The notes beneath the pieces are model-generated. The model searched no databases. It had not been told where the DNA came from and saw only the letters and a list, made by a program, of their open reading frames with translations. DNA of 64,000 bases. It comes from Limnobacter humi (GTDB lineage Bacteria; Pseudomonadota; Gammaproteobacteria; Burkholderiales; Burkholderiaceae_B). Location of the stretch: NCBI RefSeq assembly GCF_024518835.1, contig NZ_JANIGO010000002.1:811522-875521 (forward strand), written 5' to 3'. Of this stretch, positions 16,619 to 57,465 are shown piece by piece (the stretch's first letter is position 1; each line of letters starts with the position of its first letter). The position numbers and the translations under genes were made by a program.

Positions 16619-19426
16619 TTAATGTGCTTCTTCCCAGTTCAGTCCCACACCACAACCCACCTCCAGCGGCACCTTCAAGTCGGCCACCTGGGTCATGATG
16701 TCCGGTACTTTGCCCTGAATCAGCGCCAATTCGGAATTGGGGACTTCGAGAATCACCTCGTCATGCACTTGCATGATCATTTTGGTTTGAAGTTGCTCAG
16801 CCTTTAACCAGGCCGACAATTTGACCATGGCCATTTTGATCAGGTCTGCCGAGGTGCCCTGCATGGGCGCATTGATGGCCGCCCGTTCGGCCGCCGCACG
16901 GCGCGGCCCGTTGGGGCTTTTGATTTCGGGCAACCACAGGCGACGACCAAACACCGTGCTCACGTAACCATCCGCCTTGGCTTGCGCCCGAACATTCTCC
17001 ATGTAGCGGGCCACGCCTGGATAACGTGTGAAGTAGCGGTCAATGTAGAGCTTGGCCGCATCGCGGTTGATGTTCAAGTTGGCCGCCAAGCCAAATGCAC
17101 TCATGCCGTAAATCAGACCAAAGTTGATCACCTTGGCGGTTCGCCGCTGGTCTGAATTCACCTCGCCCAACGGCACACCAAAAATCTCGGAAGCGGTGGC
17201 GCTGTGAATATCCAGACCATGCTGGAAGGCGTGGATCAGGGCTTCATCCCCGCTGATGTGGGCCATGATGCGCAGTTCAATTTGCGAGTAGTCCGCCGAC
17301 ACCAACACATGGTCTGCTGGTGCCACAAAGGCTTCCCGCACACGACGGCCTTCTGCGGTTCGCACGGGAATGTTTTGAAGATTGGGGTCATTGCTGGCCA
17401 AGCGTCCAGTCACGGCAACCGCCTGGGCATAGTTGGTGTGCACGCGGCCAGTGCGTGGGTTAACCATGCGGGGCAATTTGTCGGTGTAAGTGCTTTTGAG
17501 TTTGGCGAGGCTGCGGTGCTCCAGCAATTTGGCGGGCAAGGGGTAGTCCTCAGCCAGTTTGCTCAACACCTCTTCATCGGTGGAAGGCGCCCCACTGGCC
17601 GTTTTTTTCACCACGGGCAGGCCCAGCTTGTCAAACAACAGTTCACCAATTTGTTTGGGTGAGTTCAAATTGAATTCGCCACCGGCCAATTCAAAGGCCT
17701 GGGTTTCTATCACCTTCAGCTTGTCGGCAATTTCGGCACTTTGGGCATCCAGTTTCGCGCTGTCAATCAGCACCCCATTGCGCTCCACTTCAAACAGCAC
17801 CTGGCTGAAGGGAAGCTCAATGGTGTCATACAGCGTGGCCAACTCGGGCACCTGCTTGAGTTCAGCCCGCAGTGCACCGGCCAAGCGCAAGGTCACTTCG
17901 GCATCTTCCGCGGCATATCGTGTGGCTGTTTCGATCGGTACCTGCTCAAAGCTGATCTGGCTAGCACCTTTGCCCGCCACTTCTTCATATTTGATGGTGT
18001 TGTAATTGAGCCAGCGCAAAGCCAGTGCATCCATGCCATGCGGCTTATGCGCCTCGAGAATGTAACTGGCCAGCATGGTGTCCTCGACGAGGCCTTGAAC
18101 CCACACATTGTGATTGGCCATCACGTGCAAGTCGTACTTGGCGTTTTGCGCAATTTTGGGGGCCTGTGCATCTTCAAACCAAGGCTTCAGCGCAGCCAAG
18201 GTATCGCCCAGGTTCAGCTGTGGCTCAGCGGTCAGGTCTTGATGGCCCAAGGGTATGTAATAACCAACCCCCGGCTCCAAAGCGAAGCACAGCCCAACAA
18301 TCTGCGCATTCATGGGCTCCAGCGAGGTGGTTTCTGTGTCAAACGCCACAGCACGCCCAGCTGACTTGGCCTTGGTCAGTAGCTCAATCAATTCATGCAA
18401 CGCGTCGGGGGTCTGAATGCTGACAGTTCGAATGGAATCAATGGACTGTGTGGGTGCATCGAACAAGGCATTTGGACCATTTGAAACCGACGAAACAGGC
18501 TCACCATTTGAGCCTGAAAACAAATCACCCGACACACCGACTGGCTCTTCTGGCACTCCACCCAAGGCACGAAACCAGGTTTTGAATTCAAAACGATGGA
18601 ACAGCTTTTTCAAAACCTCGGCATTTTCGGTGCCCGCTTGCAGCTGGTCTTCAATGTGGCGGGCCAATTCAATGTCGCAGTCAGTTTTCACGGTCACCAA
18701 GGTTTTGCCGGTGGGCAACCAGTCCAGTGCCTTTTTCAGGTTTTCGCCCACCTTGCCGCCAATCTGACTGGCGTTGGCCACCACACCGTCCAGGGTTTTG
18801 TATTCAGCCAACCATTTGGCGGCTGTTTTTGGCCCCACCTTTTCAACACCGGGTACATTGTCCACGGTGTCGCCAACCAGGGTGAGGTAATCGATGATTT
18901 GTTCGGGGTACACACCAAACTTTTCAAACACGGCATCGCGCGTCATCACCGAATTTTTCATGGTGTCGACCAGGCGAATTTTGTCGTTCACCAACTGCGC
19001 CAGGTCTTTGTCGCCGGTGGAAATCACCACCTCGTCAAACCCTTGACGCAGTGCCGTCTGGGCCAACGTGCCAATCACATCATCGGCCTCAATACCGGGC
19101 TCTGCAATGACGGGCCAGCCTAGGGCTTTGGTCACCTCATAAATATGGGGTATTTGCGCAGCCAGATCTTCCGGCATGCTGGATCGGTTGGCCTTGTATT
19201 CCGGATAAAGATCGTCCCGGAAGGTTTTCCCCGGCGCATCGAAAATACAGGCGATACAATTGGACGTGAGCGCGTCGCTCGGGAAATCAGCCCGAAGACG
19301 CCGAAGCATGTTCACCATGCCATAGATTGCGCCAGTGGGTTCGCCAGCCCGATTGCGCAAATCCGGCATGGCGTGAAAGGCGCGGTACAGGTAGCTGGAC
19401 CCATCGACGAGGAGTAAACGCTTCAT
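16619..19426 (-). CDS. polA: DNA polymerase I
   Basis: Fills gaps and removes RNA primers. The start is the ATG at 19426 (MKRLLLVDGSSYLYRAFHAM); an open frame continues 68 codons upstream, but that part is antisense to the neighbouring gene. It has 935 residues: 5' nuclease domain (about 1-300, with CIFDAPGKTFRDDLYPEYKA), proofreading exonuclease with intact FDTETTS (Asp and Glu ligands), and polymerase domain with SADYSQIELRIMAH, RRTAKVINFGLIYG and QVHDEVILEVP. A linker at about 304-310 carries the 21-bp palindrome described separately. I see no good ribosome site before the ATG, which directly abuts the divergent LOG gene. Confidence 0.97.
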   Translation of the reverse strand: MKRLLLVDGSSYLYRAFHAMPDLRNRAGEPTGAIYGMVNMLRRLRADFPSDALTSNCIACIFDAPGKTFRDDLYPEYKANRSSMPEDLAAQIPHIYEVTKALGWPVIAEPGIEADDVIGTLAQTALRQGFDEVVISTGDKDLAQLVNDKIRLVDTMKNSVMTRDAVFEKFGVYPEQIIDYLTLVGDTVDNVPGVEKVGPKTAAKWLAEYKTLDGVVANASQIGGKVGENLKKALDWLPTGKTLVTVKTDCDIELARHIEDQLQAGTENAEVLKKLFHRFEFKTWFRALGGVPEEPVGVSGDLFSGSNGEPVSSVSNGPNALFDAPTQSIDSIRTVSIQTPDALHELIELLTKAKSAGRAVAFDTETTSLEPMNAQIVGLCFALEPGVGYYIPLGHQDLTAEPQLNLGDTLAALKPWFEDAQAPKIAQNAKYDLHVMANHNVWVQGLVEDTMLASYILEAHKPHGMDALALRWLNYNTIKYEEVAGKGASQISFEQVPIETATRYAAEDAEVTLRLAGALRAELKQVPELATLYDTIELPFSQVLFEVERNGVLIDSAKLDAQSAEIADKLKVIETQAFELAGGEFNLNSPKQIGELLFDKLGLPVVKKTASGAPSTDEEVLSKLAEDYPLPAKLLEHRSLAKLKSTYTDKLPRMVNPRTGRVHTNYAQAVAVTGRLASNDPNLQNIPVRTAEGRRVREAFVAPADHVLVSADYSQIELRIMAHISGDEALIHAFQHGLDIHSATASEIFGVPLGEVNSDQRRTAKVINFGLIYGMSAFGLAANLNINRDAAKLYIDRYFTRYPGVARYMENVRAQAKADGYVSTVFGRRLWLPEIKSPNGPRRAAAERAAINAPMQGTSADLIKMAMVKLSAWLKAEQLQTKMIMQVHDEVILEVPNSELALIQGKVPDIMTQVADLKVPLEVGCGVGLNWEEAH
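18496..18516. repeat. Dispersed 21-bp palindrome, copy 1 (polA linker)
   Basis: CAGGCTCA-CCATT-TGAGCCTG, perfect 8-bp arms. On the polA coding strand it reads Ser-Gly-Ser-Asn-Gly-Glu-Pro-Val in the linker between the 5' nuclease and exonuclease domains. The same motif is found at 37804 and 54861, with a variant at 34905. Confidence 0.85.
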
Positions 19427-20164
19427 ATGACAACCAAGAACAAGAACATTCCGACCCTTCGCCACCTTCCATCCAAGGAGCAGTCCACCGCCGTCAAAGC
19501 GCGTGAATCGTGGCACGTGCTGGGAATTATGGCAGAGTTCATTGAGGCGACTGAGAAGCTCTCGGCAATTCGACCGTCGGTGTCCATCTTCGGCAGCGCC
19601 CGAACCAAGCCCGAACATCCGTATTATCAACTCACCGAAAAAATCGCCCGCGCCCTGTCCGACTCAGGCTTTGCCGTCATCAGCGGTGGTGGCCCAGGCA
19701 TTATGGAGGCGGCCAACAAAGGGGCCCATGCTGGTCCCTCACCCAGTGTGGGGCTGAACATCGAGTTGCCTTTTGAACAACACGGCAACCCCTACCAAAA
19801 CATCTCGTTGACCTTCCGGCACTTTTTTGCCCGCAAGGTGGCTTTTGCCAAATACGCCAGCGCATATGTCGTCATGCCCGGCGGCTTTGGCACGCTGGAT
19901 GAATTGTTTGAAGCACTCACCTTGATTCAGACCAGCAAAGGCCGCCGCATTCCGGTGGTGCTGGTGGGCCATGCATTCTGGGGTGGACTCATCGACTGGA
20001 TTCGGGGCCATCTGCTGGGCGAAGGCATGATCAGCGAAACCGATCTGGATCTGTTTGAACTGGTGGAAACACCCGACGAAGTGCTGGCCTGTATCTTCCG
20101 GTTCTATGAAAAGCGTTCTTTCCGCCCATCGGATGACGAGTCCGAGATGCTGCTCGACCTGTAA
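19427..20164 (+). CDS. LOG family protein (TIGR00730 type)
   Basis: Predicted nucleotide phosphoribohydrolase, of the family that includes the cytokinin-activating LOG enzymes; true bacterial substrate uncertain. It has 245 residues with GGGPGIMEAA at 87-96 and PGGFGTLDE at 151-159, the two catalytic LOG motifs. The ATG at 19427 is immediately next to the polA ATG (CAT-ATG). GAGGAG lies 12 bases upstream, inside polA. A Met at residue 35 (19529) is an alternative start, but the extra N-terminal segment looks like that of related long LOG proteins. A 10-bp inverted repeat follows the stop. Confidence 0.87.
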   Translation: MTTKNKNIPTLRHLPSKEQSTAVKARESWHVLGIMAEFIEATEKLSAIRPSVSIFGSARTKPEHPYYQLTEKIARALSDSGFAVISGGGPGIMEAANKGAHAGPSPSVGLNIELPFEQHGNPYQNISLTFRHFFARKVAFAKYASAYVVMPGGFGTLDELFEALTLIQTSKGRRIPVVLVGHAFWGGLIDWIRGHLLGEGMISETDLDLFELVETPDEVLACIFRFYEKRSFRPSDDESEMLLDL

Positions 20165-20171
20165 CACAGGG

Positions 20172-20200
20172 GCAAACCCGGGTAAAATCGCCGGGTTTGC
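20172..20200. repeat. 10-bp inverted repeat between LOG gene and thrB, with -10-like loop
   Basis: Perfect arms GCAAACCCGG and CCGGGTTTGC around a nine-base loop that contains TAAAAT (20183-20188). There is no T-tract. It may end the LOG transcript weakly, or it may place the thrB promoter -10 in a cruciform or operator. Confidence 0.6.
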
Positions 20201-20246
20201 TTGCCGCTGAACCATGCGGGGCATCTGATCACTTTCAGGACCATTC

Positions 20247-21203
20247 ATGGCTGTTTTCACCCGCATTACCCACGATGAGCTCAACGCCTGGCTGGCAGGG
20301 CGCCCCTGCGGCAGCCTGCAGTCCTTTGAGGGCATCAGTTCGGGGATTGAAAACACCAACTACTTTGTGAACACCAGCACCGGTCGATACGTGCTGACGA
20401 TCTTCGAAAAACTTCAAGTCAGTGAATTGCCATTTTATCTGGGCCTGATGGGGCACCTGTCGAGCAAAGGCTTGCCTGTCCCAGGGCCTGTTGCTTCCCA
20501 GGCGGGCGATCTGTATTCAATGCTGAAAGGCAAGCCGGCCACATTGGTGAATTGCCTTCAGGGACACTCCGTTGAAGCGCCCAACGGCGCCCAATGCGCA
20601 GCCATCGGTCAATTTATAGCACTGGCCCACCTGGCCGTTCTGGACTTCGATGGTCAACTGCCGAACCCACGGGGGTTGAACTGGATTCAAGAGGCCACCG
20701 GTCGATTGGTCCAGCATGCCCCTGAACACGTGCTCGCCTTGCTCAGTGACGAAGTGGCTCACCAATCCCGTATTGCAGCCAGTGCCGCATACCGTGCGCT
20801 GCCCAAGGGGGCTGTGCATGCTGACCTGTTTCGTGACAATGCACTCATGGATGGTGACACCCTGGGCGGCGTGATTGACTTTTACTTCGCCGGGATCGAC
20901 ACCTTCCTGTTTGACCTGGCGGTGACGGTGAATGACTGGTGCATTGATCTGAACACCGGGGCCTTGGACGCCGAACGCACCGCCGCCCTTTTGGCGGGTT
21001 ATCAAAAACATCGGCCCTTGCACATCGATGAACAAGCCTTGTGGCAAGACATGCTGCGCTCGGCAGCACTGCGGTTCTGGACATCCCGGCTGGTGGATTA
21101 CTACATGCCCCGGGATGCCGAAGTCCTCCATGTGAAAGACCCATCCCACTTTGAACGTGTACTGAAAGCACGCCGCGCAGGTTGCCCGGCCTGCCAGATT
21201 TAA
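20247..21203 (+). CDS. thrB: Homoserine kinase, APH-fold type
   Basis: Phosphorylates homoserine for threonine synthesis. It has 318 residues of the aminoglycoside-phosphotransferase fold, not the GHMP type found in E. coli; this is the normal form in Pseudomonas and Burkholderiales. Visible: SFEGISSGIENTNYFV for nucleotide binding, HADLFRDN (about 191-198, catalytic Asp and Asn) and the metal-binding Asp in GGVIDFYFAG. AGGA lies six bases before the ATG. The next gene follows after 21 bp and is probably co-transcribed. hom and thrC are not in the window. Confidence 0.95.
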   Translation: MAVFTRITHDELNAWLAGRPCGSLQSFEGISSGIENTNYFVNTSTGRYVLTIFEKLQVSELPFYLGLMGHLSSKGLPVPGPVASQAGDLYSMLKGKPATLVNCLQGHSVEAPNGAQCAAIGQFIALAHLAVLDFDGQLPNPRGLNWIQEATGRLVQHAPEHVLALLSDEVAHQSRIAASAAYRALPKGAVHADLFRDNALMDGDTLGGVIDFYFAGIDTFLFDLAVTVNDWCIDLNTGALDAERTAALLAGYQKHRPLHIDEQALWQDMLRSAALRFWTSRLVDYYMPRDAEVLHVKDPSHFERVLKARRAGCPACQI

Positions 21204-21224
21204 TCAGGCCCCAGGAGTATCCAC

Positions 21225-22034
21225 ATGGCCACACACCTGCACATCTGCACGCCCCGCCAAGGCTGGGAATGGTTAATGAGCGGACTTGCCCTGTTCCGCA
21301 AAAAACCCTCGGAGCTGTTCTTGCTGGGCAATACCTATTTGTTCCTGTTGTTGTTTGTGGGCATGCTGATTCCGATGCTGGGTCCTGCTGTGGTCACCCT
21401 GCTGACACCAACACTGGGTTTCGGAATCATGCTGGCCGGGAAAATGATCAAATCCGGTCTGCGGGTTTCACCCGCAGTCTTGTTTGCAGGCCTGAGCCCT
21501 GCGCACCGCCCCCACCTGCCCCGCTTGTTCCAGCTTGGCTTTATTTACACCGCCTGTTTTGCAGTGATCAAACTGCTGGCCCATGCCCTGCTGGGCCCGC
21601 AACCCATGCTGGATGTATCAAACTTGCAGAAAATCGACCCAGCGCACATTGTTCAATTTTATGAGTACATGGCGACCTACCTCAGCCTGGTTGCTTTGAC
21701 AAGCCTGCCAGTTATTTTGGCATTTTGGTATGCACCAGTGCTGGTGGTCTGGCATGGCATGTCGGCCGGTCAGGCCCTTTTCTCAAGCTGGATTGCTGTA
21801 TGGCGCAACAAGTCAGCCTTCCTCATTTTCGGCATGGGCTGGATACTGCTCAGTGTTGGTTTCTGCTCTGCTGTGGTGGCGGTGTTCAGTCTCCTGGGGC
21901 TGCCTGCATCCTTGTTGGGTGCACTCAACATCCTGACCATGGCAGTGGTGATGAGTGTCTCGCTGGCCACGTTTTACCCCACATACACCGACGTGTTTGA
22001 GCACGACCCAGAGCACATTCAGACCCAGGCTTGA
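21225..22034 (+). CDS. BPSS1780 family membrane protein, function unknown
   Basis: Integral membrane protein of 269 residues with about six hydrophobic segments. The N-terminal block (GWEWLMSGLALFRKKPSELF, then a segment with GPAVVTLLTPTLGFGIMLAG) is what I recognise from the BPSS1780 family of Burkholderiales. AGGAG precedes the ATG at 21225. Its stop (TGA 22032-22034) abuts the stop of uvrD on the other strand with no gap. No enzymatic motif is visible. Its place after thrB is conserved in relatives as far as I recall, without a known functional link. Confidence 0.75.
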   Translation: MATHLHICTPRQGWEWLMSGLALFRKKPSELFLLGNTYLFLLLFVGMLIPMLGPAVVTLLTPTLGFGIMLAGKMIKSGLRVSPAVLFAGLSPAHRPHLPRLFQLGFIYTACFAVIKLLAHALLGPQPMLDVSNLQKIDPAHIVQFYEYMATYLSLVALTSLPVILAFWYAPVLVVWHGMSAGQALFSSWIAVWRNKSAFLIFGMGWILLSVGFCSAVVAVFSLLGLPASLLGALNILTMAVVMSVSLATFYPTYTDVFEHDPEHIQTQA

Positions 22035-24293
22035 TTACACCCTGCTGAGTTTCGCCAAACTCAGCATTAACCACTTCATGCCCTGGCGCCCGAAATTGAT
22101 CTGGATTCGCTGATCATCCCCTTCACCCTCATAGGCCACCACCACACCCTGACCAAACTTGGCGTGTTCAACGCCCGTGCCAATGGGATAGGGTCTGTTG
22201 GCTGCCTTTTGCGTGTAGGCCTTTCCACCCCCAAAGCTGGCAGTGTTGTTCCAGGACTTTGCATCCAGTGCATCCCAACCCGAGCTCGCGATGTGTGCCC
22301 GCTTGGGGGTCAGCCATTTCAGGACATCTTCAGGCAGTTCATCCAGGAAACGGGACCGCAGGTGATAGCGAATTTGACCGTGCAGCATGCGCTGTTGGGC
22401 GTAACTAAGGAACAATTGCTCCCGCGCCCGGGTAATGGCGACATACATCAAGCGACGCTCTTCTTCGACCGCCTCCACACTGGTGCCATCGCCCGCCTCG
22501 ATGGTATTGCCCACGCTGTTTTCATGGGGAAACAAACCTTCCTCCAGGCCGGTCACAAACACACAATGGAACTCCAGCCCTTTGGCTGCATGCGCAGTCA
22601 TCAACTGCACCGCTTGCTCGCCTGCGGCGGCTGCGTTGTCACCTGCCTCCAAAGAAGCGTGGGACAAAAAGTCTGCCAATGGCGTGATGAGCTTTTCAGC
22701 ATCCATCTCGGTGGCTGCCGTGTCTTGAAAGTAACCCTCAGCCACAGCGAATGAAGCTGCCGCGTTCACCAATTCTTTCAAGTTTTCAACCCGGTCTTCA
22801 CCATCCTTGTCAGCCTCGAAGTGCTGCAACAAACCGCTTTCCACCACCACCTTGTCCACCAGCTCGGCCAGCCCCAAGCCACGGGTTTCAAACCGCAACC
22901 GCTCAATCAGTTGGGCAAATTTTTGCAAGCTCGCCTGTGCACGGCCATCCATCAGCGGGATGGCCCGGTACAGCGATATACCTTGTTGCGTGGCCAAGTC
23001 CTGCAGTTGCTCAATACTGCGCGCACCAATGCCCCGGGTTGGAAAATTCACCACGCGTGAAAACGAGTTGTCATCGTCCGCATTGTCCAACAGGCGCAAA
23101 TAGGCCAAGGCATGCTTGATTTCAGCGCGTTCAAAAAAGCGCAAACCGCCGTACACACGGTAAGGAATGCCGGCATTGAACAGGGCCTGTTCCACCACCC
23201 GAGACTGGGCATTGGATCGATACAGGATCGCGATGTCAGAGCGACTCATGCCCTCTTCCGTGGTCAATTTCTTGATTCGATCGATGATGAAACCGGCTTC
23301 GTCCTGATCACTGATGGCCTCGTACACACGAATCGGTTCGCCCTCGCCCGCATCAGTCCACAAGTCTTTGCCCAAGCGGGCCTTGTTGTTTGCAATCAGG
23401 ACATTGGCTGCTTTCAGCACATTGCCCACGGAACGGTAGTTTTGCTCCAGCTTGATGCGGTTTTGCACATCAAAGTCGCGCTCGAACTGGCTCATATTGG
23501 CCACCCGCGCGCCGCGGAATGCATAAATCGACTGGTCGTCGTCTCCCACGGCAAAAATACACCCTTGAGGGCCCGACAATCGCTTTAACCACTGATACTG
23601 CAGTGTGTTGGTGTCTTGAAACTCATCCACCAAAATGTAACGAAAACGCTGCTGATAGTGCTCACGCAACGCGGCATTGGCACCCAATAGTTCAAAGCTG
23701 CGCAACAGCAGTTCAGCAAAATCCACCACGCCTTCCCGCTGGCATTGGGCCTCATAGGCCTCGTAGAGCCTGACCATCATGCGGTGGTATTCGTCGAAGG
23801 CGTCGACGTCCTTGGGGCGTAAACCTTGTTCCTTGGCTGAGCCGATGAAGTAAGCCAGTTGCTTGGGCTGAAATTTCTCAGCATCAATGTTCAGCACCTT
23901 GTACATGCGTTTGATGGCCGATAACTGGTCCTGCATGTCCAAAATTTGAAAGGCTTGGGGCAAACCCGCTTCGCGCCAATGCGCCCGCAACATCCGGTTA
24001 CACAGGCCGTGAAAGGTACCCACCCACATGCTGCGGGTGTTGATGGGCAACATGCTGGAAATGCGGTGAAGCATTTCCTTGGCGGCCTTGTTGGTGAATG
24101 TGACTGCCAATACCCCGCCTGGCCCCACTTGCCCGGTTTGAATCAGCCAGGCAATTCGCGCGGTGAGCACCTTGGTTTTCCCGCTGCCTGCGCCAGCCAG
24201 AATCAAGGCTGACTCTCTGGGCAGGGTGACTGCGGCCAATTGCTCGGGGTTCAGATTGTCGAGTAGGGACACGTGCGCAATTCCAAGATTCAA
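22035..24293 (-). CDS. uvrD: ATP-dependent DNA helicase UvrD/Rep type
   Basis: Superfamily 1A 3'-5' helicase used in nucleotide-excision and mismatch repair. It has 752 residues. Motif I GAGSGKT is near residue 36, motif II reads LVDEFQDTN, motif III GDDDQSIYAFRGA, motif IV QNYRS, motif V TAHAAKGLEF and motif VI YVAITRAR, so all helicase motifs are present. The C-terminal Tudor-like tail ends with VEHAKFGQGVVVAYEGEG. It could be called PcrA/Rep-like, but length and tail favour UvrD. The start used is the ATG at 24293; a GTG seven codons inside is possible. Confidence 0.95.
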   Translation of the reverse strand: MNLGIAHVSLLDNLNPEQLAAVTLPRESALILAGAGSGKTKVLTARIAWLIQTGQVGPGGVLAVTFTNKAAKEMLHRISSMLPINTRSMWVGTFHGLCNRMLRAHWREAGLPQAFQILDMQDQLSAIKRMYKVLNIDAEKFQPKQLAYFIGSAKEQGLRPKDVDAFDEYHRMMVRLYEAYEAQCQREGVVDFAELLLRSFELLGANAALREHYQQRFRYILVDEFQDTNTLQYQWLKRLSGPQGCIFAVGDDDQSIYAFRGARVANMSQFERDFDVQNRIKLEQNYRSVGNVLKAANVLIANNKARLGKDLWTDAGEGEPIRVYEAISDQDEAGFIIDRIKKLTTEEGMSRSDIAILYRSNAQSRVVEQALFNAGIPYRVYGGLRFFERAEIKHALAYLRLLDNADDDNSFSRVVNFPTRGIGARSIEQLQDLATQQGISLYRAIPLMDGRAQASLQKFAQLIERLRFETRGLGLAELVDKVVVESGLLQHFEADKDGEDRVENLKELVNAAASFAVAEGYFQDTAATEMDAEKLITPLADFLSHASLEAGDNAAAAGEQAVQLMTAHAAKGLEFHCVFVTGLEEGLFPHENSVGNTIEAGDGTSVEAVEEERRLMYVAITRAREQLFLSYAQQRMLHGQIRYHLRSRFLDELPEDVLKWLTPKRAHIASSGWDALDAKSWNNTASFGGGKAYTQKAANRPYPIGTGVEHAKFGQGVVVAYEGEGDDQRIQINFGRQGMKWLMLSLAKLSRV

Positions 24294-24376
24294 TGGCTGT
24301 TGATTTTAACAGTGTTATTGCCACAACACTGACGCAGCCCCAACTCACGCAACCTCGAAAGCACCACAAAGCCCGA

Positions 24377-24382
24377 TATAAT
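24377..24382 (+). promoter_or_regulatory. -10 element upstream of leuS
   Basis: Consensus TATAAT, but no good -35 at 16-18 bp. It gives an 84-base leader before the leuS ATG. Moderate support only. Confidence 0.45.
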
Positions 24383-24405
24383 CAAAGATTGCCCCGAATC
24401 CCTGA

Positions 24406-27114
<2,709 letters not shown>

Positions 27115-27169
27115 GGTACAAATCAGCAAACACAACCATCGGATGGGCCCCACTTTGCAAAGCGTATTC

Positions 27170-31787: not shown

Positions 31788-31792
31788 ACGGC

Positions 31793-34174: not shown

Positions 34175-34978
34175 ATGAACCACACACTGTTTATTGGCGG
34201 CGGCAATATGGCGTTTGCCATCATTGGCGGGCTGCTGGCCCAAGGCGAAGACGCCGCCCAATGTCGGGTCATCGACCCCAGTCCGGAGGCCTCGCGAAAA
34301 CTCAACGCACTGGGCATTGAATGCAGCGCTGACTGGCCGGAAAACTTTGCACCCGAGGTGGTCGTTTTGGCGGTGAAACCGCAAATGATGAAAGAGGTGC
34401 TCCAGGCCCACGGTGCAAACCTGGGCGACAGCCTGATCATCAGCATTGCTGCCGGTGTCAGTGTGGCTCAAATCCGGCAATGGAGTGGCCAGGTGGATGC
34501 CAAGGTGGTGCGCTGCATGCCCAACACACCGGCCTTGGTGGGTGAAGGGCTGTCGGGTTTGTATTTCACCACCAACTGCGACGGCGAAGACCGGGAGGAA
34601 GCCACCGCCATATTTGAAAGCTGCGGCAAGGTGGTGGTGGTGGACGACGAGTCCAGCATCAACGCCATCACTGCCATCTCCGGCAGTGGTCCAGGCTATG
34701 TGTTTTACCTCATGGAAGCATTGGCCGAAGGTGCGCGTGCGCTGGGCTTTGATGAATCACAGGCCAATTTGCTGGTGTCACAAACTTTTTTGGGTGCGGC
34801 CACATTGGCCTCACAATCCAGCGACTCATTTTCCACCCTGCGAGAAAAAGTCACCTCCACAGGCGGCACCACTTTTGCCGGTCTGGAAGCCATGCGGGCT
34901 CATGCCGTGAGCCTGGGTATCGTGGAGGGTGCTAAGGCAGCCATGGCACGGGCTGAAGAACTGCAGAACGGGGCCTAG
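34175..34978 (+). CDS. proC: Pyrroline-5-carboxylate reductase
   Basis: Last step of proline synthesis, NAD(P)H dependent. The ATG at 34175 with AAGGA upstream gives 267 residues. The N-terminal Rossmann motif reads FIGGGNMAFAIIGGLL; the catalytic and substrate region includes GSGPGYVFYLMEAL and the C-terminal TSTGGTTFAGLEAM. Near the C-terminus (34905-34925) the DNA carries a variant copy of the dispersed palindrome, read here as MRAHAVSLG. It is probably co-transcribed with yggS. Confidence 0.97.
   Translation: MNHTLFIGGGNMAFAIIGGLLAQGEDAAQCRVIDPSPEASRKLNALGIECSADWPENFAPEVVVLAVKPQMMKEVLQAHGANLGDSLIISIAAGVSVAQIRQWSGQVDAKVVRCMPNTPALVGEGLSGLYFTTNCDGEDREEATAIFESCGKVVVVDDESSINAITAISGSGPGYVFYLMEALAEGARALGFDESQANLLVSQTFLGAATLASQSSDSFSTLREKVTSTGGTTFAGLEAMRAHAVSLGIVEGAKAAMARAEELQNGA
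34905..34925. repeat. Dispersed palindrome, variant copy (proC)
   Basis: CGGGCTCA-TGCCG-TGAGCCTG. One base of the left arm differs from the consensus (A to G), the mirror of the change in the recG copy. Here the reading phase differs from the other three copies. Confidence 0.65.
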
Positions 34979-37002: not shown

Positions 37003-37386
37003 ATGAGCACCCCACAGGTTATTTCCACACCCAAAGCCCCTGCCGCCATCGGCCCATACAGCCAAGCCATTCAATTCGGCAATCTGGTGTTTACATCGGG
37101 CCAAATTGGCCTGAACCCCAGCACCGGTGACCTGGTTGGCCCCGGCACCGTTGAGCAGGCCCGGCAGGCATTTGCCAATCTCAAAGCGGTGGCAGAACAA
37201 GCCGGCGGCAGCTTGGCCAATGTGGTCAAGTTCACACTCTTTCTCACCGACCTCAGTGAGTTTGCTGACGTGAACGCGATCATGCAGGAATTTGTATCGG
37301 CACCCTTCCCGGCTCGCTCCACCGTCGGTGTAGCCAGCCTGCCCAAAGGCGCCCGATTTGAAGTGGAAGCCATCCTCGCCCTTTGA
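37003..37386 (+). CDS. ridA: RidA family reactive enamine/imine deaminase
   Basis: Trimeric protein that hydrolyses reactive 2-aminoacrylate-type enamines made by PLP enzymes. It has 127 residues. PYSQAI near 18, FTSGQIGLNP, and the C-terminal STVGVASLPKGARFEVEAI with the catalytic Arg and Glu region are present. It overlaps recG by TTGA, so recG translation depends on it. The 190 bp upstream, shared with oxyR, hold its promoter; I could not fix the hexamers. Confidence 0.93.
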   Translation: MSTPQVISTPKAPAAIGPYSQAIQFGNLVFTSGQIGLNPSTGDLVGPGTVEQARQAFANLKAVAEQAGGSLANVVKFTLFLTDLSEFADVNAIMQEFVSAPFPARSTVGVASLPKGARFEVEAILAL

Positions 37387-39473
37387 GCAGCAACGTCCCC
37401 TTTCCTGAACTCAGCCCACTGCCCACGCACCTCGCTGAGGCTGTGGGCAGCCTGATTCACGCCCCGCACTGGATGGGCCTGGCTCTTCATTTGCCCCTTC
37501 GGTTCGAAGACAAGGTTACCGTCACGGCGATGGATGCACTGCAGGTGGGCCAGAAGGCCAATCTGGTGGCCAGCGTGGTGGGCTCAGACATTCAGTACAA
37601 ACCCCGCAAGCAATTGCGGGTTTGGGTGGAAGATGGTGAAGTCTCGCTGGTTCTGCGGTGGCTGCATTTTTACCCGGGTTTGCGGGACAAAATGCCCGAC
37701 GGTGCGCGGATTCACATCAGCGGCCAAATACGGCAGGGTTACGGAACACTGGAGATTGTTCACCCCCAGATCCGAATCGCACGACCGGATGACAACACTG
37801 AATCAGGCTCACCGATTGAGCCCGGCCATCAACCGAGTGGTGTATTGGAGCCTGTCTATCCCAGCACCGGCACCCTCAAGCAGTCTGACTGGCATCGCTG
37901 GATGAAAAAACTGCCAGAAGCCTGCTTTGTAGACACTCTGCCAAACAAACTGATTCAACAACACCAGCTGTTGCCCTGGAATATTGCACTGCAGACCTTG
38001 CATGGTCAGGCAGCCCCCAGCCAACTGTTTGATTTGAACCTTCGAACCCATGCAGCGTGGGTTCGTGTGAAAGTTGACGAACTGCTGGCCCAGCAACTGC
38101 TGCTTCAGGAATACCGCAACCAGCGAACCCAGGAAAAAGCGCAGTCTTTGAAAAAGGCGGTTCGCAAAGGGCTGGTGGAACAATTTCTTCGGAGTTTGCC
38201 ATTCACGCTCACGGGTGCCCAGCAACGGGCAGTTCGGGACATCTTCGAAGACTTGAAAAACCCCTACCCCATGCAGCGTCTATTGCAGGGCGATGTGGGC
38301 AGCGGAAAAACCCTGGTGGCAGCATTGGCCTGCATCAAGGCAGTTGAATGCGGTCACCAAGCGGCCTTGCTGGCCCCGACCGAGGTGTTGGCCGAACAAC
38401 ACGTATTCAAGCTCAAACCGCTGCTGGAGCGCGTGGGCATCCGATGTGGGAAGCTGCAGGGCGCCATGAAAAAAAGTGAGAAGAAAGCCACGCTGCAAGC
38501 CCTGGCCCAAGGTGAAGTGGATGTGGTCATCGGCACCCACGCCCTGGTGCAAGACACTGTCACCTTCAAGTCACTGGCGCTGGTGGTGGTGGACGAACAG
38601 CACCGATTCGGTGTGGCTCAACGCTTAAGCCTGATCGCCAAAGCAGGCAACGGTCTGCTGGCACATCAGTTGATGATGAGCGCAACCCCAATTCCCCGCA
38701 CATTGGCGCAAACCTATTTGTCCGACCTCGCCGTTTCCAATCTGGATGAAAAGCCACCAGGCCGACAACCCATCATCACCAAACTGTTGTCCCAGAAAAA
38801 GCGGGAACAACTGGTGGCTGCGATTGAACATGAAATCGAAAAAGGTCAGCAGGTTTATTGGGTCTGCCCGCTGATCGAGGACAGTGAAACACTGGACCTT
38901 CAGGCCGCCGAAGCGACCTACACGGCTTTGATCGAACTGATGCCGAATCGGCGTATCGCCTTGCTGCATGGCAAACAGGACAGCAAGTTGAAGCAGTCCA
39001 CCATGGCCGCGTTCAGCGCTGGGCAGGTCGACCTGCTGGTGTCCACCACTGTGATTGAGGTGGGTGTGGATGTGGGCAATGCCAGCCTGATGGTGATTGA
39101 CCAGGCCGAGCGTTTTGGTTTGGCCCAGCTTCATCAACTACGCGGGCGGGTTGGGCGGGGCAGCCTTCAAAGCGTGTGTGTGTTGTTGTACGGCAGCGAA
39201 CTGTCGCAAACTGCCAAACAGCGGTTAAAAGCCATGCATGACAGTGATGATGGTTTTTACCTGGCAGAACGCGACCTCGAAATTCGTGGGCCCGGAGAGC
39301 TGCTCGGCAAACGACAATCCGGTTTGCCCTCCCTGCGCTATGCTGACCCCTTGGTGGACAAAGACTTGCTGAACACGGCACGTGCGATTGCGCAGCAAAT
39401 GCCGCTGGATGACGTGAATACGCGGCGGCATATTCAACGCTGGACCGAGGACACGCCTTGGTGGCTGAGTTGA
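37383..39473 (+). CDS. recG: ATP-dependent DNA helicase RecG
   Basis: Rescues stalled replication forks by fork regression. It has 696 residues: N-terminal wedge OB domain (about 50-190), helicase core with motif I GDVGSGKTLVA near 302, motif II DEQH near 403 (VVVDEQHRFGV), TATPIPRT-type motif III (MSATPIPRTLA) and motif VI QLRGRVGRG, then the TRG-like LGKRQSGLPSLRYAD. The start is TTG overlapping the ridA stop; no ATG is available before conserved sequence. Residues 141-147, in a variable part of the wedge domain, are encoded by a copy of the dispersed palindrome. Confidence 0.97.
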   Translation: MSSNVPFPELSPLPTHLAEAVGSLIHAPHWMGLALHLPLRFEDKVTVTAMDALQVGQKANLVASVVGSDIQYKPRKQLRVWVEDGEVSLVLRWLHFYPGLRDKMPDGARIHISGQIRQGYGTLEIVHPQIRIARPDDNTESGSPIEPGHQPSGVLEPVYPSTGTLKQSDWHRWMKKLPEACFVDTLPNKLIQQHQLLPWNIALQTLHGQAAPSQLFDLNLRTHAAWVRVKVDELLAQQLLLQEYRNQRTQEKAQSLKKAVRKGLVEQFLRSLPFTLTGAQQRAVRDIFEDLKNPYPMQRLLQGDVGSGKTLVAALACIKAVECGHQAALLAPTEVLAEQHVFKLKPLLERVGIRCGKLQGAMKKSEKKATLQALAQGEVDVVIGTHALVQDTVTFKSLALVVVDEQHRFGVAQRLSLIAKAGNGLLAHQLMMSATPIPRTLAQTYLSDLAVSNLDEKPPGRQPIITKLLSQKKREQLVAAIEHEIEKGQQVYWVCPLIEDSETLDLQAAEATYTALIELMPNRRIALLHGKQDSKLKQSTMAAFSAGQVDLLVSTTVIEVGVDVGNASLMVIDQAERFGLAQLHQLRGRVGRGSLQSVCVLLYGSELSQTAKQRLKAMHDSDDGFYLAERDLEIRGPGELLGKRQSGLPSLRYADPLVDKDLLNTARAIAQQMPLDDVNTRRHIQRWTEDTPWWLS
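37804..37824. repeat. Dispersed 21-bp palindrome, copy in recG
   Basis: CAGGCTCA-CCGAT-TGAGCCCG, one mismatch in the right arm. Read as Ser-Gly-Ser-Pro-Ile-Glu-Pro-Gly in a variable insert of the wedge domain, in the same phase as the polA and gyrA copies. Confidence 0.8.
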
Positions 39474-46541: not shown

Positions 46542-46605
46542 TGTTGTTGGCATCAGCGTGTTGCCCCAAAGGAGCAGCACATGTTGAATACAAAAATACG
46601 ACCTA

Positions 46606-46646: not shown

Positions 46647-46658
46647 CATTACACACGA

Positions 46659-48359: not shown

Positions 48360-48460
48360 AACGGTTGGTGTTGACACGCCCATGCTGGCGCAAGAGCGGA
48401 GTTTTAAAACGCACCGGCACACCATGTGCTGGCACGGCTTCCCCGAAACACGGACAGGGC

Positions 48461-48475
48461 GCCTAAAATTTAGGC
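48461..48475. repeat. Short palindrome in the rpsA leader
   Basis: GCCTAAA-A-TTTAGGC, perfect 7-bp arms, about 100 bp upstream of the rpsA start. It overlaps the probable -10 region (TAAATT on the minus strand). A second imperfect stem, with GCACA/TGTGC arms, lies nearer the gene around 48411-48436. Confidence 0.5.
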
Positions 48476-48508
48476 AGACATCCGAATTACAGGGGCTTGA
48501 ATGGTAAC

Positions 48509-48531
48509 AAAAAAAGCTTGAATCATCAAGC
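48509..48531 (-). terminator. Terminator hairpin built on the cmk stop codon
   Basis: On the minus strand GCTTGA-TGAT-TCAAGC followed by T7; the cmk stop TGA (48528-48526) is the last three bases of the left arm. The stem is short (6 bp), so leaky termination or attenuation into rpsA is likely, and a ribosome at the stop codon would hinder folding. Confidence 0.7.
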
Positions 48532-50531: not shown

Positions 50532-50576
50532 ACAGGTTCTCGGGTTGATGGATGTCGTGGCTGTGAACCAGGACCT

Positions 50577-51467: not shown

Positions 51468-51470
51468 GAA

Positions 51471-52592
51471 TTAACCCAACACCTTCAATGCTTCGGGGAG
51501 CGCATCGAGAAATCGCTGGTTCTCGGCTGGCAAACCAATCGAAATGCGCAGCCACTGGGGCAAGCCATAATTGTTGACAGGCCGCACGATCACGCCCAGG
51601 CGCTGCAAGGCATCGAACACCTTCAGACCTGCATCGTCGCTGTTGCCCACTTTCACCAACACAAAATTACCGTAGGACGGCACGTAGGGCAGCCCCATGC
51701 GTTCAAACGCGGATTGCAACAAGTTCAGGCCCTGCTGATTTGTTTCATAAGTCAGCTGAAGAAACTCAGCATCATCCAGCGCAGCCTCGGCCGCAGCCAA
51801 TGCAATCGAGTTGACATTGAAAGGCTGGCGAACACGGTTGAGCAAATCAGCCACTTCAGGGCTGCTGACCGCGTAACCCACCCGCAGGCCAGCCAAACCA
51901 TAGGCCTTTGAAAAACTGCGGGACACCAGCAAATTGGGGAATTCTGCAACCCACTGGGTGCTGTCGTACTGGTCCTCGGGCTTCAGGAACTCGTTATAGG
52001 CTTCATCCAGCACCACCAGCACACGGCTGGGTACCTGCTTCAGGAAGGCACGGATCTGATCGGCCGCCAAGAATGTACCCGTTGGGTTGTTGGGGTTGGC
52101 AATGAACACCACCCGGGTATTGTCATCAATCGCGGCCAAAAAACCGGTCAGATCGTGCGTCAAGTTAGCCGCCGGAACAACCTTGGACTGAGCACCACAA
52201 CCCTGGGTAGCCAGGGGATACACGGCAAATGCATATTGCGAAAACACCGCATTGGTGCCCTGCGTGAGGAAAGCCTTGGCTGCCAACTCCAACACATCGT
52301 TGGAGCCATTGCCCAGGGTGATTTGATCGGCCCCGACACTGTGCCTGGTCGACAATTTGGCCTTGAGGGAAAAACCGTTGGCATCCGGATAGCGGCCCAA
52401 ATCGGCTGCAGCCTGTGCAATGGCCGCTTTGGCTTTGCTGCCCAATCCCAGCGGGTTTTCATTGGACGCCAACTTGACCACTGTCTCGGGATTCAATCCC
52501 AACTCGCGCACCACATCCGATACCGGTTTGCCGGCCTTGTAAGGCGCAATGGCCCGAATAAACTGGGGTGCAAGATCGGTGAGTTGTGACAT
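51471..52592 (-). CDS. hisC: Histidinol-phosphate / aromatic aminotransferase HisC
   Basis: PLP aminotransferase of fold type I, 373 residues. The PLP Lys is in SRSFSKAYGLAGLRVGY near 228, with NPNNPTGTFLA and the C-terminal LRISIGLPAENQRFL containing the substrate Arg. Lying between pheA and tyrA, it is the HisC-like enzyme of the aromatic cluster and probably also transaminates prephenate or phenylpyruvate-type acids; another hisC in a his operon is possible. Confidence 0.92.
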   Translation of the reverse strand: MSQLTDLAPQFIRAIAPYKAGKPVSDVVRELGLNPETVVKLASNENPLGLGSKAKAAIAQAAADLGRYPDANGFSLKAKLSTRHSVGADQITLGNGSNDVLELAAKAFLTQGTNAVFSQYAFAVYPLATQGCGAQSKVVPAANLTHDLTGFLAAIDDNTRVVFIANPNNPTGTFLAADQIRAFLKQVPSRVLVVLDEAYNEFLKPEDQYDSTQWVAEFPNLLVSRSFSKAYGLAGLRVGYAVSSPEVADLLNRVRQPFNVNSIALAAAEAALDDAEFLQLTYETNQQGLNLLQSAFERMGLPYVPSYGNFVLVKVGNSDDAGLKVFDALQRLGVIVRPVNNYGLPQWLRISIGLPAENQRFLDALPEALKVLG

Positions 52593-52619
52593 GGTACTGA
52601 CCTGTGAATCAAAAGAGTG

Positions 52620-53732
52620 TCAAGTTCGTTGTGCAGCCGGATAAGAACCCAGCACTTTTAAAAATGAAGCGGATTGCCGCAAATCATCCAGTGCTCTGGC
52701 CACAGCCGCATCCTGCTGGTGCCCCTGCAGATCGATAAAAAAATAATATTCCCAGCGGCCAGTGCGGGCTGGCCTGCTCTCCAACCGTGTCATGGATACA
52801 TTCTGGGCATTCATGGGCTCGAGCATTTTGTACACAGCACCCGGCTGATTGGGCACGGAGGCCACCAAGCTGGTTTTGTCGATGCCAGATGGGCCTGGCT
52901 GCTGCTTGCCCAACACCAAAAAACGAGTGGTGTTGTTGGCATCGTCCTGAATGTGCTCTTGAACCGCTTTTAGGCTGTACCGCTCACGGGCTGTTTGTCC
53001 GGCGATTGCGGCCACTGTAGGGTCTTCACTGGCCAGCTTGGCGGCTGCGCCGTTGCTGGACACGGTTTCCTGCTGAATCTGCGGTGCGTTTTGAGCCAAC
53101 CAGTTGCGGCATTGCGCCAAGGCCTGCGGATGCGCACAGATTTTTTGAATGCCTTGTAGTGAGCCACTTTGCGTCAACAACTGATGATGAATTGGCAATT
53201 GCACTTCACCGCAAATGCTTGCATGACTGTCCACCAGAGCGTCCAGCGTGCGGGCCACTGATCCTTCTGTCGAATTTTCCACCGGCACCACGGCAAAGTC
53301 CACCTGCTCGGCATCCAGTTGCCGAAATGCCTCTTCAATCGTTTCCACGGGCTCTGCCTGTACACAATGGCCGAAGAAAGACCAGACAGCCTGTTCACTG
53401 TAGGTGCCCAGCGGCCCCAGGAATGCCACGTGAACCTCACGTTCCAAGGAGCGACAAGCCGACATGATTTCTTTGAACAGCGTGCGGACATGCGGGGCGC
53501 TCAACGGCCCCTGATTGGCGTTGGTGAGCTTGTCCAGCACCTGTGCCTCGCGCTCGGGGCGCATCACGGGGGCATCGGTTTTGGCTTTGACATGGCCGAT
53601 GTCCTGTGCCAGCCTCGCGCGCTGATTGAGCAAGCCTAAAATTTGCAAGTCCAAGGCGTCGATCTGATCCCGAAACTTCAGCAGTTCCTGGTTGATGTCG
53701 ACGTCGGATTTTTCGCTGTTGCCCATGGTCAA
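52620..53732 (-). CDS. pheA: Bifunctional chorismate mutase / prephenate dehydratase
   Basis: P-protein of phenylalanine synthesis, 370 residues. AroQ-type chorismate mutase at about 10-95 (FRDQIDALDLQILGLLNQRA), prephenate dehydratase at about 105-285 with FLGPLGTYSEQA and the catalytic TRF in NNTTRFLVLG, then an ACT domain with the ESRPARTGRWEYYFFID phenylalanine-binding region, so feedback inhibition is expected. The start overlaps the serC stop by 4 bp; a Met two codons later is also possible. Confidence 0.97.
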   Translation of the reverse strand: MTMGNSEKSDVDINQELLKFRDQIDALDLQILGLLNQRARLAQDIGHVKAKTDAPVMRPEREAQVLDKLTNANQGPLSAPHVRTLFKEIMSACRSLEREVHVAFLGPLGTYSEQAVWSFFGHCVQAEPVETIEEAFRQLDAEQVDFAVVPVENSTEGSVARTLDALVDSHASICGEVQLPIHHQLLTQSGSLQGIQKICAHPQALAQCRNWLAQNAPQIQQETVSSNGAAAKLASEDPTVAAIAGQTARERYSLKAVQEHIQDDANNTTRFLVLGKQQPGPSGIDKTSLVASVPNQPGAVYKMLEPMNAQNVSMTRLESRPARTGRWEYYFFIDLQGHQQDAAVARALDDLRQSASFLKVLGSYPAAQRT

Positions 53733-54850
53733 GCCACCTCTTGCTCAAACTCGCGCATGAATGCAGCCAACGCCTGTACACCTTCCAGTGGCATGGCGTT
53801 GTAGATGGATGCCCGCATGCCGCCCACCGATTTATGTCCCTTCAACTGGACCAAGCCACGCTCAGCAGCTTTGCTCAGAAACATGGCATTCAATGACTCG
53901 TCGGCCAAGGTGAACGGGACGTTCATGCGCGACCGGTCTGCCTTGCGCACCGGGCAGTGGTAAAAGCTGCTGTGGTCGATCAGGTTGTACAACACATCAG
54001 CCTTGAGCTGCGATTGCTGTTCAGCCCAAGCAACGCCACCTTGGGCCAGTAACCACTCAAACACCAATCCAGCAATGTAAATGGAATAGGTTGGTGGCGT
54101 GTTGTACATGGAACCGTTGTCGGCCACGGTCTTGAATTCAAAGGCGGATGGGCAAATGGGTTGTGCACGCTCCAGCAGGTCTTTTCGAACCACCACAATG
54201 GTGACACCGGCAGGCCCTACATTTTTTTGGGCACCACCGTACAGCACGCCATAACGGCTCACGTCCAATTGGCGGGACAGAATATTGGACGACACATCGG
54301 CCACCAACGGGCAATCCAGCGCATTGGCCAGATTCTCGATCTGACCATTGAACTCCACCCCACCGATGGTTTCATTGTCGCAAAAGTGCAGGTAAGCCAT
54401 GCTTTGGCCATTGACCCTGTCTGCCAGGTGTGCGCAATCGGGCACATAGGCACCGGCGGCGGCATCGGCTGCGGCATTCCCATTGTCCAACACCACACGA
54501 GCGGTGCCGTATTTTGAAAATTCTTTGCTGGTTTTTTTGGACCAGGCACCGGTATTCACGAAAGCCGCTTGCTCAAAGCCCTGCAGCAAATTCAGTGGAA
54601 TGATGGCATTCATGCCCACCGCACCACCCTGCATGAACAGCACTTCGTGGCTATCGGGCACATTCAGCAGTGCCCGGAAGTCTGCACGGGTTTTCTCAAA
54701 AATACCCATGTACTCAGGACTGCGGTGACTCATTTCCATCACCGACAAGCCTTTGCCCTGCCAATCCAGCATTTCGGCAGCCGCGCGCTGCAGCACAGAC
54801 TCAGGCAGCGCGGCGGGGCCTGCCGAAAAATTCCAGACCCGGCTCATCAC
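53729..54850 (-). CDS. serC: Phosphoserine aminotransferase
   Basis: PLP enzyme for serine and, in many bacteria, pyridoxine synthesis. It has 373 residues (or 372 from the second Met). The N-terminus [18 protein letters not shown], the PLP Lys in [13 protein letters not shown] near 203, and the C-terminal [17 protein letters not shown] are diagnostic. It overlaps the gyrA stop by ATGA and pheA by 4 bp. The gyrA-serC-pheA order is typical of Burkholderiales. Confidence 0.97.
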
Positions 54851-57465
54851 ACACCTTCTGCAGGCTCATCGCTTGAGCCTGTGTCAGCATCACTGTCGAC
54901 TTCCTCTTCAGCATCACCCTCCACAATGCGCTGCAAGCCGCTCAGCCATGTGCCTTCATCCACGCTGATCAAGGTCACGCCTTGTGTGGCGCGGCCCATT
55001 TCGCGGATTTCGGACACCCGGGTGCGAACCAACACACCACCCGTGGTGATCAACATGATTTCGTCAGTCGGGTCCACCAGCACGGCAGACACCACTTTGC
55101 CATTCCGTTCGGAGGTTTGAATGGCAATCATGCCCTTGGTGCCTCGGCCATGGCGTGTGTATTCAGCCACTGGGGTCCGCTTGCCGTAGCCATTTTGTGT
55201 GGCTGTGAGCACAGACTGCCCTTCATGCTCGGCCACCAGCAGCGCGATCACGCGCTGGCCCTCTTCCAGATTCATGCCACGAACACCACGGGCATTGCGG
55301 CCCATGGCGCGTACATCATTTTCGTCAAAGCGAACGGCCTTGCCGGAATCGGAGAACAGCATGACATCGTGCTGGCCATCGGTCATCGCCGCGCCAATCA
55401 GGTAGTCGCCTTCGTCCAGATTCACCGCGATAATGCCGCGCTTCATCGGGCGGGAGAAGTCGCTGAGCTTGGACTTTTTAACGGTGCCCAGGCTGGTGGC
55501 CATGAACACGTATTTTTCATCCTCAAATTCTTTGACTGGCAGGATGGTGGTTATTTTTTCACCCTCCTCCAGCGGTAGCATATTGATGATGGGGCGACCG
55601 CGTGAAGTGCGCGAACCTTGTGGCACCTCGTACACTTTCAACCAGTACACCCGGCCCGCATTGCTGAAGCACAGGATGGTGTCATGTGTATTGGCCACCA
55701 CCAGATAGTCGATCCAGTCGTCTTCCTTGGTCGCTGCCGCTTGCTTGCCCCGGCCTCCGCGCTTTTGCGCACGGTATTCGGTCAGCGGCTGGCTCTTCAC
55801 ATAACCGGAATGGGACAGTGTCACCACCATGTCTTGTGGGGTGATCAAGTCTTCGGTACCCAGCTCGGTCGCGTTGAACTCGATGGTTGAACGACGGCCA
55901 TCGGAAAATTCATTGCTGATACCGGTCAGTTCATCCTTGATGATCTGATTGATACGCGCTGGTTTGCTCAAAATATCCAGCAGGTCTGCAATCTGATCAA
56001 TCACTTCCTTGTATTCATTGATGATCTTGTCCTGCTCAAGCCCGGTCAGGCGCTGAAGACGCATCTGCAAAATTTCTTGCGCCTGCTCATCACTCAAGTG
56101 ATACAAGCCGTCGTCCTGCAAGCCCAGTCGTGCCGGCAGGCCTTCCGGACGGAAAGCTTTTGCGCCACCGGCATCAGCCAGCTCAGTGCGGCTCAACATT
56201 TCCCGAACCAGGGAAGAATCCCACCCTCGGGCCAGCAACTCGGCCTTGGCCACAGGCGGTGTGGGTGCAGCCTTGATGATGGCGATGAATTCATCGATGT
56301 TGGCCAGCGCCACGGCCAAGCCCTCCAGCACATGGCCACGCTCGCGGGCCTTGCGCAGGTCAAACACCGTGCGGCGTGTTACGACTTCGCGACGGTGCTG
56401 CAGGAAGTAAACAATCAATTCGCGCAGGTTGAGCAACTTGGGCTGCCCGTCCACCAAGGCCACCATGTTGATGCCGAAGGTGTCCTGCAATTGCGTGTTT
56501 TTGTACAGGTTGTTCAGCACCACTTCGGGCACTTCACCCCGTTTCAACTCAATCACCACCCGCACGCCGTCTTTGTCAGACTCATCCCGGATGTCGGAAA
56601 TGCCTTCCATTTTCTTTTCGGACACCAGCTCAGCGATTCGCTCCAACAGGCTTTTCTTGTTCACCTGATAGGGCAGCTCGTCGACAATGATGGCCACACG
56701 ATTACCGCGGTCAATGTCTTCAAAATGGGTTTTGGCCCGCATCACCACGCGGCCGCGCCCAGTGCGATATCCTTCGCGCACCCCAGCAATGCCGTAAATG
56801 ATGCCAGCAGTCGGAAAATCGGGAGCCGGGATGAATTCGATCAGATCATCCACCGTGCAATCCGGGTGATCAATCGCATGCAGACAAGCAGCCACCACTT
56901 CCTTCAAGTTGTGGGGTGCCATGTTGGTGGCCATGCCCACCGCAATGCCGGATGAACCGTTGATCAGCAGGTTGGGCAAGCGTGCAGGCAGCACCTTGGG
57001 TTCCTTTTCACTGCCGTCGTAGTTGGGGCCGAAATCAACGGTTTCCTTGTCGATGTCGAGCAGCATTTCATGGGCAATTTTGTCCAGGCGAATTTCGGTG
57101 TAACGCATGGCCGCTGCGTTATCGCCGTCAATCGAACCGAAGTTACCTTGGCCATCCACCAGCGTGTAGCGCAGGGAAAAGTCCTGCGCCATTCGAACAA
57201 TGGTGTCGTACACGGCGGAGTCACCATGGGGGTGGTATTTACCGATCACGTCACCCACGATACGCGCTGATTTTTTATAGGCCCGGTTCCAGTCGTTGTT
57301 CAATTCATGCATGGCAAACAGCACACGCCGATGCACAGGCTTCAAGCCATCGCGCACATCGGGCAAGGCCCGCCCCACGATCACGCTCATGGCGTAATCC
57401 AGATAAGAACGCCGCATCTCCTCCTCAAGGCTGATGGGGAGCGTTTCCTTTGCAAATGAATCCAT
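54847..57465 (-). CDS. gyrA: DNA gyrase subunit A
   Basis: DNA cleavage and wrapping subunit of gyrase, 872 residues. Catalytic Tyr122 is in [11 protein letters not shown]; quinolone-region residues Ser83 and Asp87 in [13 protein letters not shown] are the sensitive wild-type forms. The GyrA box QKRGGRGK is in the C-terminal beta-pinwheel. The acidic tail [16 protein letters not shown] is variable; residues 862-868 are encoded by a copy of the dispersed palindrome. A probable -10 lies 96 bp upstream. It heads the minus-strand run down to hldD. Confidence 0.98.
54861..54881. repeat. Dispersed 21-bp palindrome, copy in gyrA tail
   Basis: CAGGCTCA-TCGCT-TGAGCCTG, perfect 8-bp arms. On the gyrA strand it reads Thr-Gly-Ser-Ser-Asp-Glu-Pro-Ala, four codons before the last residue, in the same phase as the polA and recG copies. 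Confidence 0.85.

Follow-up and report, generated by a model that had tools for sequence, protein, structure and literature searches.

The window, that is, the whole 64-kb stretch of DNA analysed here, carries seven sites within three mismatches of the 21-bp gapped palindrome CAGGCTCA-N5-TGAGCCTG, four of which contain an exact copy of its core, GGCTCA-N5-TGAGCC (Table 1). These four are located in genes that the initial annotation had named polA, proC, recG and gyrA, identities that are borne out by Pfam. The perfect copies in polA and gyrA and the one-mismatch copy in recG were present exactly as reported there; the one-mismatch copy in proC exists as well, but at 34895-34915, ten bases away from the interval originally given for it (34905-34925). 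The polA copy lies between the 5'-3' and 3'-5' exonuclease domains, the recG copy at 37804-37824 falls in a hypervariable insert, the proC copy is close to the 3' end of its gene, and the gyrA copy occupies the final codons of its gene, whose tail differs in two relatives (G010 and G013). Codon-preserving shuffling of the predicted genes of the window produced 0.025 exact cores on average and one at most (200 shuffles), as against the four observed, and for sites with up to three mismatches, of which the window has seven, 100 shuffles gave 0.49 on average and never more than three. An Rfam scan of the window at gathering scores matched tmRNA alone. The sequence GATCTGAT or its complement was also found eight times in the window (6985-62152) versus 0.9 expected; it occurs just 14 times in a 699-kb sample of the genome, so that this excess is local.

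Table 1. Copies of the palindrome in the 64-kb window.
Copy	Position	Match to the 21-bp palindrome	Reading frame or residues	Gene position and strand
polA	18496-18516	perfect	GSxxEP	predicted gene 16619-19426, minus
gyrA	54861-54881	perfect	GSxxEP	predicted gene 54847-57465, minus
recG	37804-37824	exact core, one outer mismatch	GSxxEP	gene 37383-39473, plus
proC	34895-34915	exact core, one outer mismatch	QAxxxSL (RAHAVSL)	predicted gene 34175-34978, plus
recG, weak	38613-38633	three mismatches (core with one mismatch)	at conserved VAQRLSL	
periplasmic binding protein gene, weak	12605-12625	two mismatches (core with one mismatch)		gene 12077-13324, minus
weak	26861-26881	three mismatches		

The genome holding the window (G000; 3,235,113 bases in 29 contigs) contains 59 exact copies of the 21-mer, with none for the reversed control, and 272 sites at up to two mismatches. 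The core is present in 211 exact copies (104 + 107), corresponding to approximately 65 per Mb, against a chance expectation of about 0.3 calculated from base composition; the centre of the spacer is A/T in 59 of them and G/C in 152. Within the 699-kb sample, which was picked around known sites and therefore yields inflated densities, the predicted genes hold 62 exact cores, whereas codon-preserving shuffling gave 1.275 on average and 7 at most. The palindrome is thus real and genome-wide, and the initial claim that it recurs beyond chance holds, the count lying far above the codon-preserving shuffle that had been proposed as a check. No description of it was found in the open-access literature searched, among the matches listed.

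Architecture, gene context and chromosomal position

The spacer is strictly 5 bp long, although its sequence differs between sites: in 404 kb of sequence picked around sites, 42 sites with at most one mismatch have a gap of 5, as opposed to a single one over all other gaps from 0 to 20. The arm CAGGCTCA, counted together with its complement, is the top over-represented 8-mer of the 699-kb sample (187 occurrences versus 49.2 expected), and 142 of these half-sites face a partner arm with at least five of eight matches. Since only 45 have no such partner (four matches or fewer of eight), lone half-sites are at the background level, and a single repeat unit, as a feature of the DUS/USS type, is not over-represented on its own in this sample. 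Information declines outwards from the core, with values of 0.86, 0.79, 0.44 and 0.38 for C, A, T and A, respectively (the column orientation differs by strand). One-mismatch cores reach 33-87 per Mb in six sequence sets from G000. The figures for five other gap lengths are 0-8 per Mb, and four sets taken from the relatives G008, G010 and G013 yield 0-13 per Mb; two-mismatch cores scarcely exceed background. The 53 core mismatches include 17 at position 1 and 14 at position 4, with only one at position 2. Judged from these sequences, such position-specific mismatches and so strict a unit would fit protein contacts better than a neutral decay of copies.

Gene calls were made with a codon-usage script, and of the 57 genes carrying sites beyond the window, 50 were compared with a library of families. 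Among the 80 core sites in the 699 kb, 62 lie wholly in predicted genes, 13 are intergenic and five extend across a gene end (four at the 3' end and one at the predicted start). As the coding density of the sample is 92.8%, non-coding sequence and gene ends are approximately threefold enriched. The coding sites are read either as QAxxxSL (36 sites) or as GSxxEP (26 sites), and never in the stop-containing frame; the common phase first noted for polA, recG and gyrA is therefore correct for these three genes, but as a general rule it proved to be a small-sample effect. The intergenic sites fall between convergent (seven) or codirectional (five) genes, none between divergent ones, with one side unseen in the remaining case. 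Their coding location, together with the lack of sites between divergent genes, speaks against ordinary regulation. Close site pairs were considered as a possible sign of autoregulation. The pair on L386 was rejected, being inside one long ORF; that of G015 (L427) is outside long ORFs.

The genes bearing sites include polA, recG, gyrA, dnaX, mutL, a ligase-associated damage-response helicase gene and an addA-like gene (the last below family cut-offs), the dnaX, addA-like, mutL and helicase sites being located on L058, L061 (G000 C1:120001-140000) and L066. A bias towards genome-maintenance genes is possible, the gene list being one without a control set.

The position of the sites was profiled from terminus to origin along one replichore, using the 137 of 211 sites located on contigs C1 and C12, which were joined end to end because of their synteny with G008. 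The dnaA gene lies at C1:874 kb, and the GC skew switches sign near C12:180 kb, a spot placed by synteny near the middle of the G008 genome. Close to this switch there is a dif-like sequence (C12:176980, L213:3980); a stricter dif search returned nothing, and a looser one a single hit in G000, with no hit in G008. Eight successive bins from terminus to origin hold 3, 19, 16, 15, 16, 12, 16 and 17 exact cores (114 sites), and a uniform spread along the mapped replichore is not rejected (KS p 0.16). The longest interval free of exact cores measures 147,085 bp and starts approximately 3 kb away from the dif-like sequence. With 211 gaps, the probability of such an interval is about 0.014, a value calculated after the hole had been noticed. 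In the surrounding 150 kb, 13 one-mismatch cores are still present, and 78% of this stretch matches the syntenic stretch of G008, with a poor match at about 190-230 kb. On the other side of the terminus, the first 181 kb of C12 contain eight exact cores, and C12:0-460k, which includes the dif-like site, contains 19 versus 30.0 expected (p 0.03). Spacing between sites is Poisson-like on C1 (CV 0.98) and clumped on C12 (CV 1.43; random 0.78-1.25). With a hole on one side only, and with statistics compatible with evenly spread sites, there is weak support for a role tied to a particular domain.

Two known patterns were compared with this profile and rejected, namely strict terminus exclusion of the SlmA/Noc type, as there is one 147-kb hole on one side only, and confinement to Ter of the MatP/matS type, as the sites are genome-wide. 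Separately, G000 C12:190000-230000 (L357-L359) shows low similarity to G008 and no exact sites, with a GC content of 0.61-0.63 over its first 30 kb, and is perhaps a genomic island at the terminus. The stretch of C1 between 7.8 kb and 481 kb also contains a jump in synteny with G008, from 2.42 Mb to 0.46 Mb, which points to an assembly error or an inversion spanning the origin.

Origin of the sites and distribution among relatives

At 11 coding sites of the C12 stretch, none of 27 orthologue comparisons (tblastn alignments) showed a gap of at least five codons at the site. The same result (0 of 41 comparisons) was obtained for 27 further sites, picked by eye from 50 candidate segments for likely conserved genes and covered in G015 in 21 cases and in G008 in 20, some of these matches having less than 45% identity and being perhaps paralogues. 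Amino-acid identity in the G015 and G008 comparisons was 0.38/0.39 for the site codons, 0.60/0.67 nearby and 0.68/0.73 further off, which suggests that the sites sit at, or have altered, fast-changing codons. The linker of polA is eight codons shorter in G008, G010 and G013, and the aligner sets the gap two codons after the site, so that this site alone is ambiguous between insertion and substitution. Taken together, the alignments indicate that the sites apparently arose in place by letter-by-letter substitution rather than by insertion.

Particular genes illustrate how positions compare between lineages. In acs, the same six residues as those of the site are written with other codons in G008, while at the VAQRLSL residues of recG an exact core occurs at the same codons in G015. 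The initial annotation had regarded the same residues encoded by unrelated codons in relatives as evidence against the element; literally, this is the situation in acs and at recG VAQRLSL, but there it reflects the creation of a site by synonymous change rather than coincidence. In the hypervariable insert of recG, G015 also has an exact core (GSANEP), whereas 11 main-clade recG genes have 6-10 core mismatches at the aligned position and G004 is gapped, the alignment being uncertain in this region. Of the 21 G015 orthologues covered, two have a core with at most one mismatch at the aligned position (in acs and in the gene of an Opp-type ATPase, where the residues are nearly conserved) and a third has one 15 nt away, giving three of 21 within 75 nt; in G008, none of 20 has one at the aligned position. 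In the reverse direction, three of seven covered G015 sites (24 tried) were near a G000 site: two in recG, and one in the Opp-type gene already mentioned. Site positions mostly turn over, while the phenomenon itself is common to G000 and G015.

Across the genus (16 genomes), G000 has 211 exact cores, G015 61, G009 two and G010 one, and the remaining 12 have none. With up to two mismatches, 102 sites were counted in G015 and 0-7 in the 14 other congeners. The exact 21-mer occurs in three of 60 genomes (G000 and 59 relatives), with 59 copies in G000, five in G015 and two in G036, a member of another family. In a draw of 399 genomes of the order, which includes G000, has G004 as its sole other congener and does not contain G015, cores with a G/C centre are present in 97 genomes, numbering 152 in G000 and nine at most in any other. 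Palindrome counts (arms of 5-6 bp, gaps of 0-15) detected no comparable motif in G008, G010 and G013 (120-140 kb of each), nor did 60 kb of G004 show one. G000 and G015 do not group as sisters in a long-branched tree built from RecG alone, which would imply losses or separate gains. The site system is dispensable, since 14 of the 16 congeneric genomes manage without it. At viral loci, among the matches listed, the site lies mostly within open frames, often at homologous positions, and for this reason no phage source is claimed.

Proposed role and comparison with known systems

From these data we infer that the sites are recognition sites for one putative sequence-specific homodimeric DNA-binding protein with a probable role at chromosome scale, a reading to which we give a probability of roughly one half, and that selection is the driver. 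A homodimer bound to half-sites one turn apart best explains the strict spacing, the dependence on both halves and the two-fold symmetry; with the half-sites 11 bp apart, i.e. approximately one helical turn, both subunits would lie on the same face of the DNA, each reading GGCTCA, with the flanking CA and AT contacted more weakly. The initial annotation had suggested the binding site of a dimeric protein acting chromosome-wide, tolerated at flexible points of proteins; this is consistent with the spacer, the lone halves, the mismatch tolerance and the spread, the protein itself being putative. Base substitutions would create sites wherever a protein sequence or the 3' end of a gene can accommodate them, and selection for the site would keep copies in place. 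The role would probably concern the chromosome as a whole (its organisation, segregation or coordination with division) and not transcription control. In a more specific and tentative form, the palindromes may constitute a chromosome-marking system of two Limnobacter lineages (14 other congeners having 0-2 cores), in which the putative homodimer would read hundreds of in-gene gapped palindromes and would either mark self DNA or organise the chromosome, strong sites being thinned beside the terminus. Of these two functions, the terminus-side hole slightly favours chromosome organisation, and turnover and dispensability self-recognition.

The main rival, which we consider doubtful but worth weighing, is an uptake-like or self-recognition motif, whereby site-bearing DNA would be preferentially taken up or spared and would accumulate by molecular drive in permissive places. 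Such a drive would suit the turnover and dispensability of the sites as well as the low identity of site codons to orthologues (38-39% versus 68-73% far away), and the occurrence in permissive regions, terminators and genome-maintenance genes resembles that of the Neisseria DUS (PMC2397512). Several sites are indeed terminator-like, and polA, recG, gyrA, dnaX and mutL are among the site genes, albeit in a list without a control set. The strict gapped palindrome and the lone halves, which are not enriched, are nevertheless unlike single DUS units, and drive does not predict the terminus-side hole. Density and location differ too: about 65 exact cores per Mb compare with one DUS per approximately 1,150-1,500 nt, and DUSs are mostly intergenic, whereas the palindromes described here are mostly in genes (PMC2397512 for the DUS figures).

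An unlikely explanation is a methylation-linked iterated palindrome similar to HIP1, in which a methyltransferase and biased mismatch repair would create and keep the sites, as proposed for cyanobacteria (PMC4390886). The sites are dispersed in genes, palindromic, lineage-specific and substitution-made, all of which would agree with such a process, but HIP1 comprises eight bases, with an expected frequency of roughly one per 1000 nt (PMC4390886), while the present palindrome is rarer, gapped and 12-16 bp long.

We regard an RNA-level element, either a terminator or an mRNA hairpin, as quite improbable. Seven of the 13 intergenic sites lie between convergent genes, several core sites extend into complementary flanks, and four of the five perfect sites of G015 are flanked by A- and T-rich runs. 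Four G015 sites (C3:5188, C6:6722, C6:45930 and C9:23554) share a 17-mer with the loop TTGAT, and two of the sites with this loop are A/T-flanked, terminator-like hairpins. Against this, the 62 of 80 sites wholly in predicted genes, in either frame, do not conform to the pattern of an intrinsic terminator (an intergenic hairpin followed by a T run), and the sequence is conserved beyond pairing. Moreover, outer-arm pairs departing from Watson-Crick on the gene strand comprise nine G-U, seven A-C and 17 others; G-U pairs are thus not favoured, which argues against an RNA hairpin.

A mobile palindromic element inserting in frame, the other alternative raised in the initial annotation, is very improbable: 21 bp equal seven codons, the frames used in genes are only the stop-free ones and the polA linker is eight codons longer than in three relatives, but polA alone is ambiguous, 0 of 27 and 0 of 41 comparisons are gapped, spacers differ between sites and near-site mismatches are position-specific. 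Chance or codon bias is scarcely credible, given a codon-shuffle mean of 1.275 against 62 observed sites and 14 congeners at 0-2, even though, among the matches listed, phage genes contain the palindrome through peptides such as QAHQMSLP and GSxxEP, in many cases at homologous positions.

Only a few such genome-wide systems of sites are known, and the presence of this one in two lineages of one genus, with sequenced relatives devoid of it, makes gain, loss and protein-sequence cost directly comparable. DUS and USS are single non-palindromic units, and the Rickettsia palindromic elements, palindromic and in frame within genes, are longer insertions; unlike the latter, the Limnobacter sites show no insertion in alignments (polA being ambiguous). 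The sites share with the Neisseria DUS and Pasteurellaceae USS an occurrence in permissive regions and terminators, although DUSs are about tenfold denser and mostly intergenic in Neisseria (PMC2397512). With HIP1 of cyanobacteria they have in common a lineage-dependent over-representation of a palindrome, HIP1 being, however, 8 bp long, ungapped and more frequent (PMC4390886). Like matS, the 13-bp site of MatP that is confined to Ter (PMC3116907), the Limnobacter motif is a short dispersed palindrome, but it is genome-wide. The Noc sites of B. subtilis, around 70 copies of a 14-bp palindrome, are likewise dispersed and unevenly distributed (PMC4726725). The SlmA sites, which serve nucleoid occlusion in E. 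coli, consist of the 12-bp GTGAGTACTCAC with no spacer and number approximately 50, with none in Ter; they are similarly palindromic, dispersed, located mainly in coding sequence and thinned at the terminus (PMC3116907), whereas the Limnobacter motif is gapped, is present in 211 exact cores and has just a one-sided hole near the terminus.
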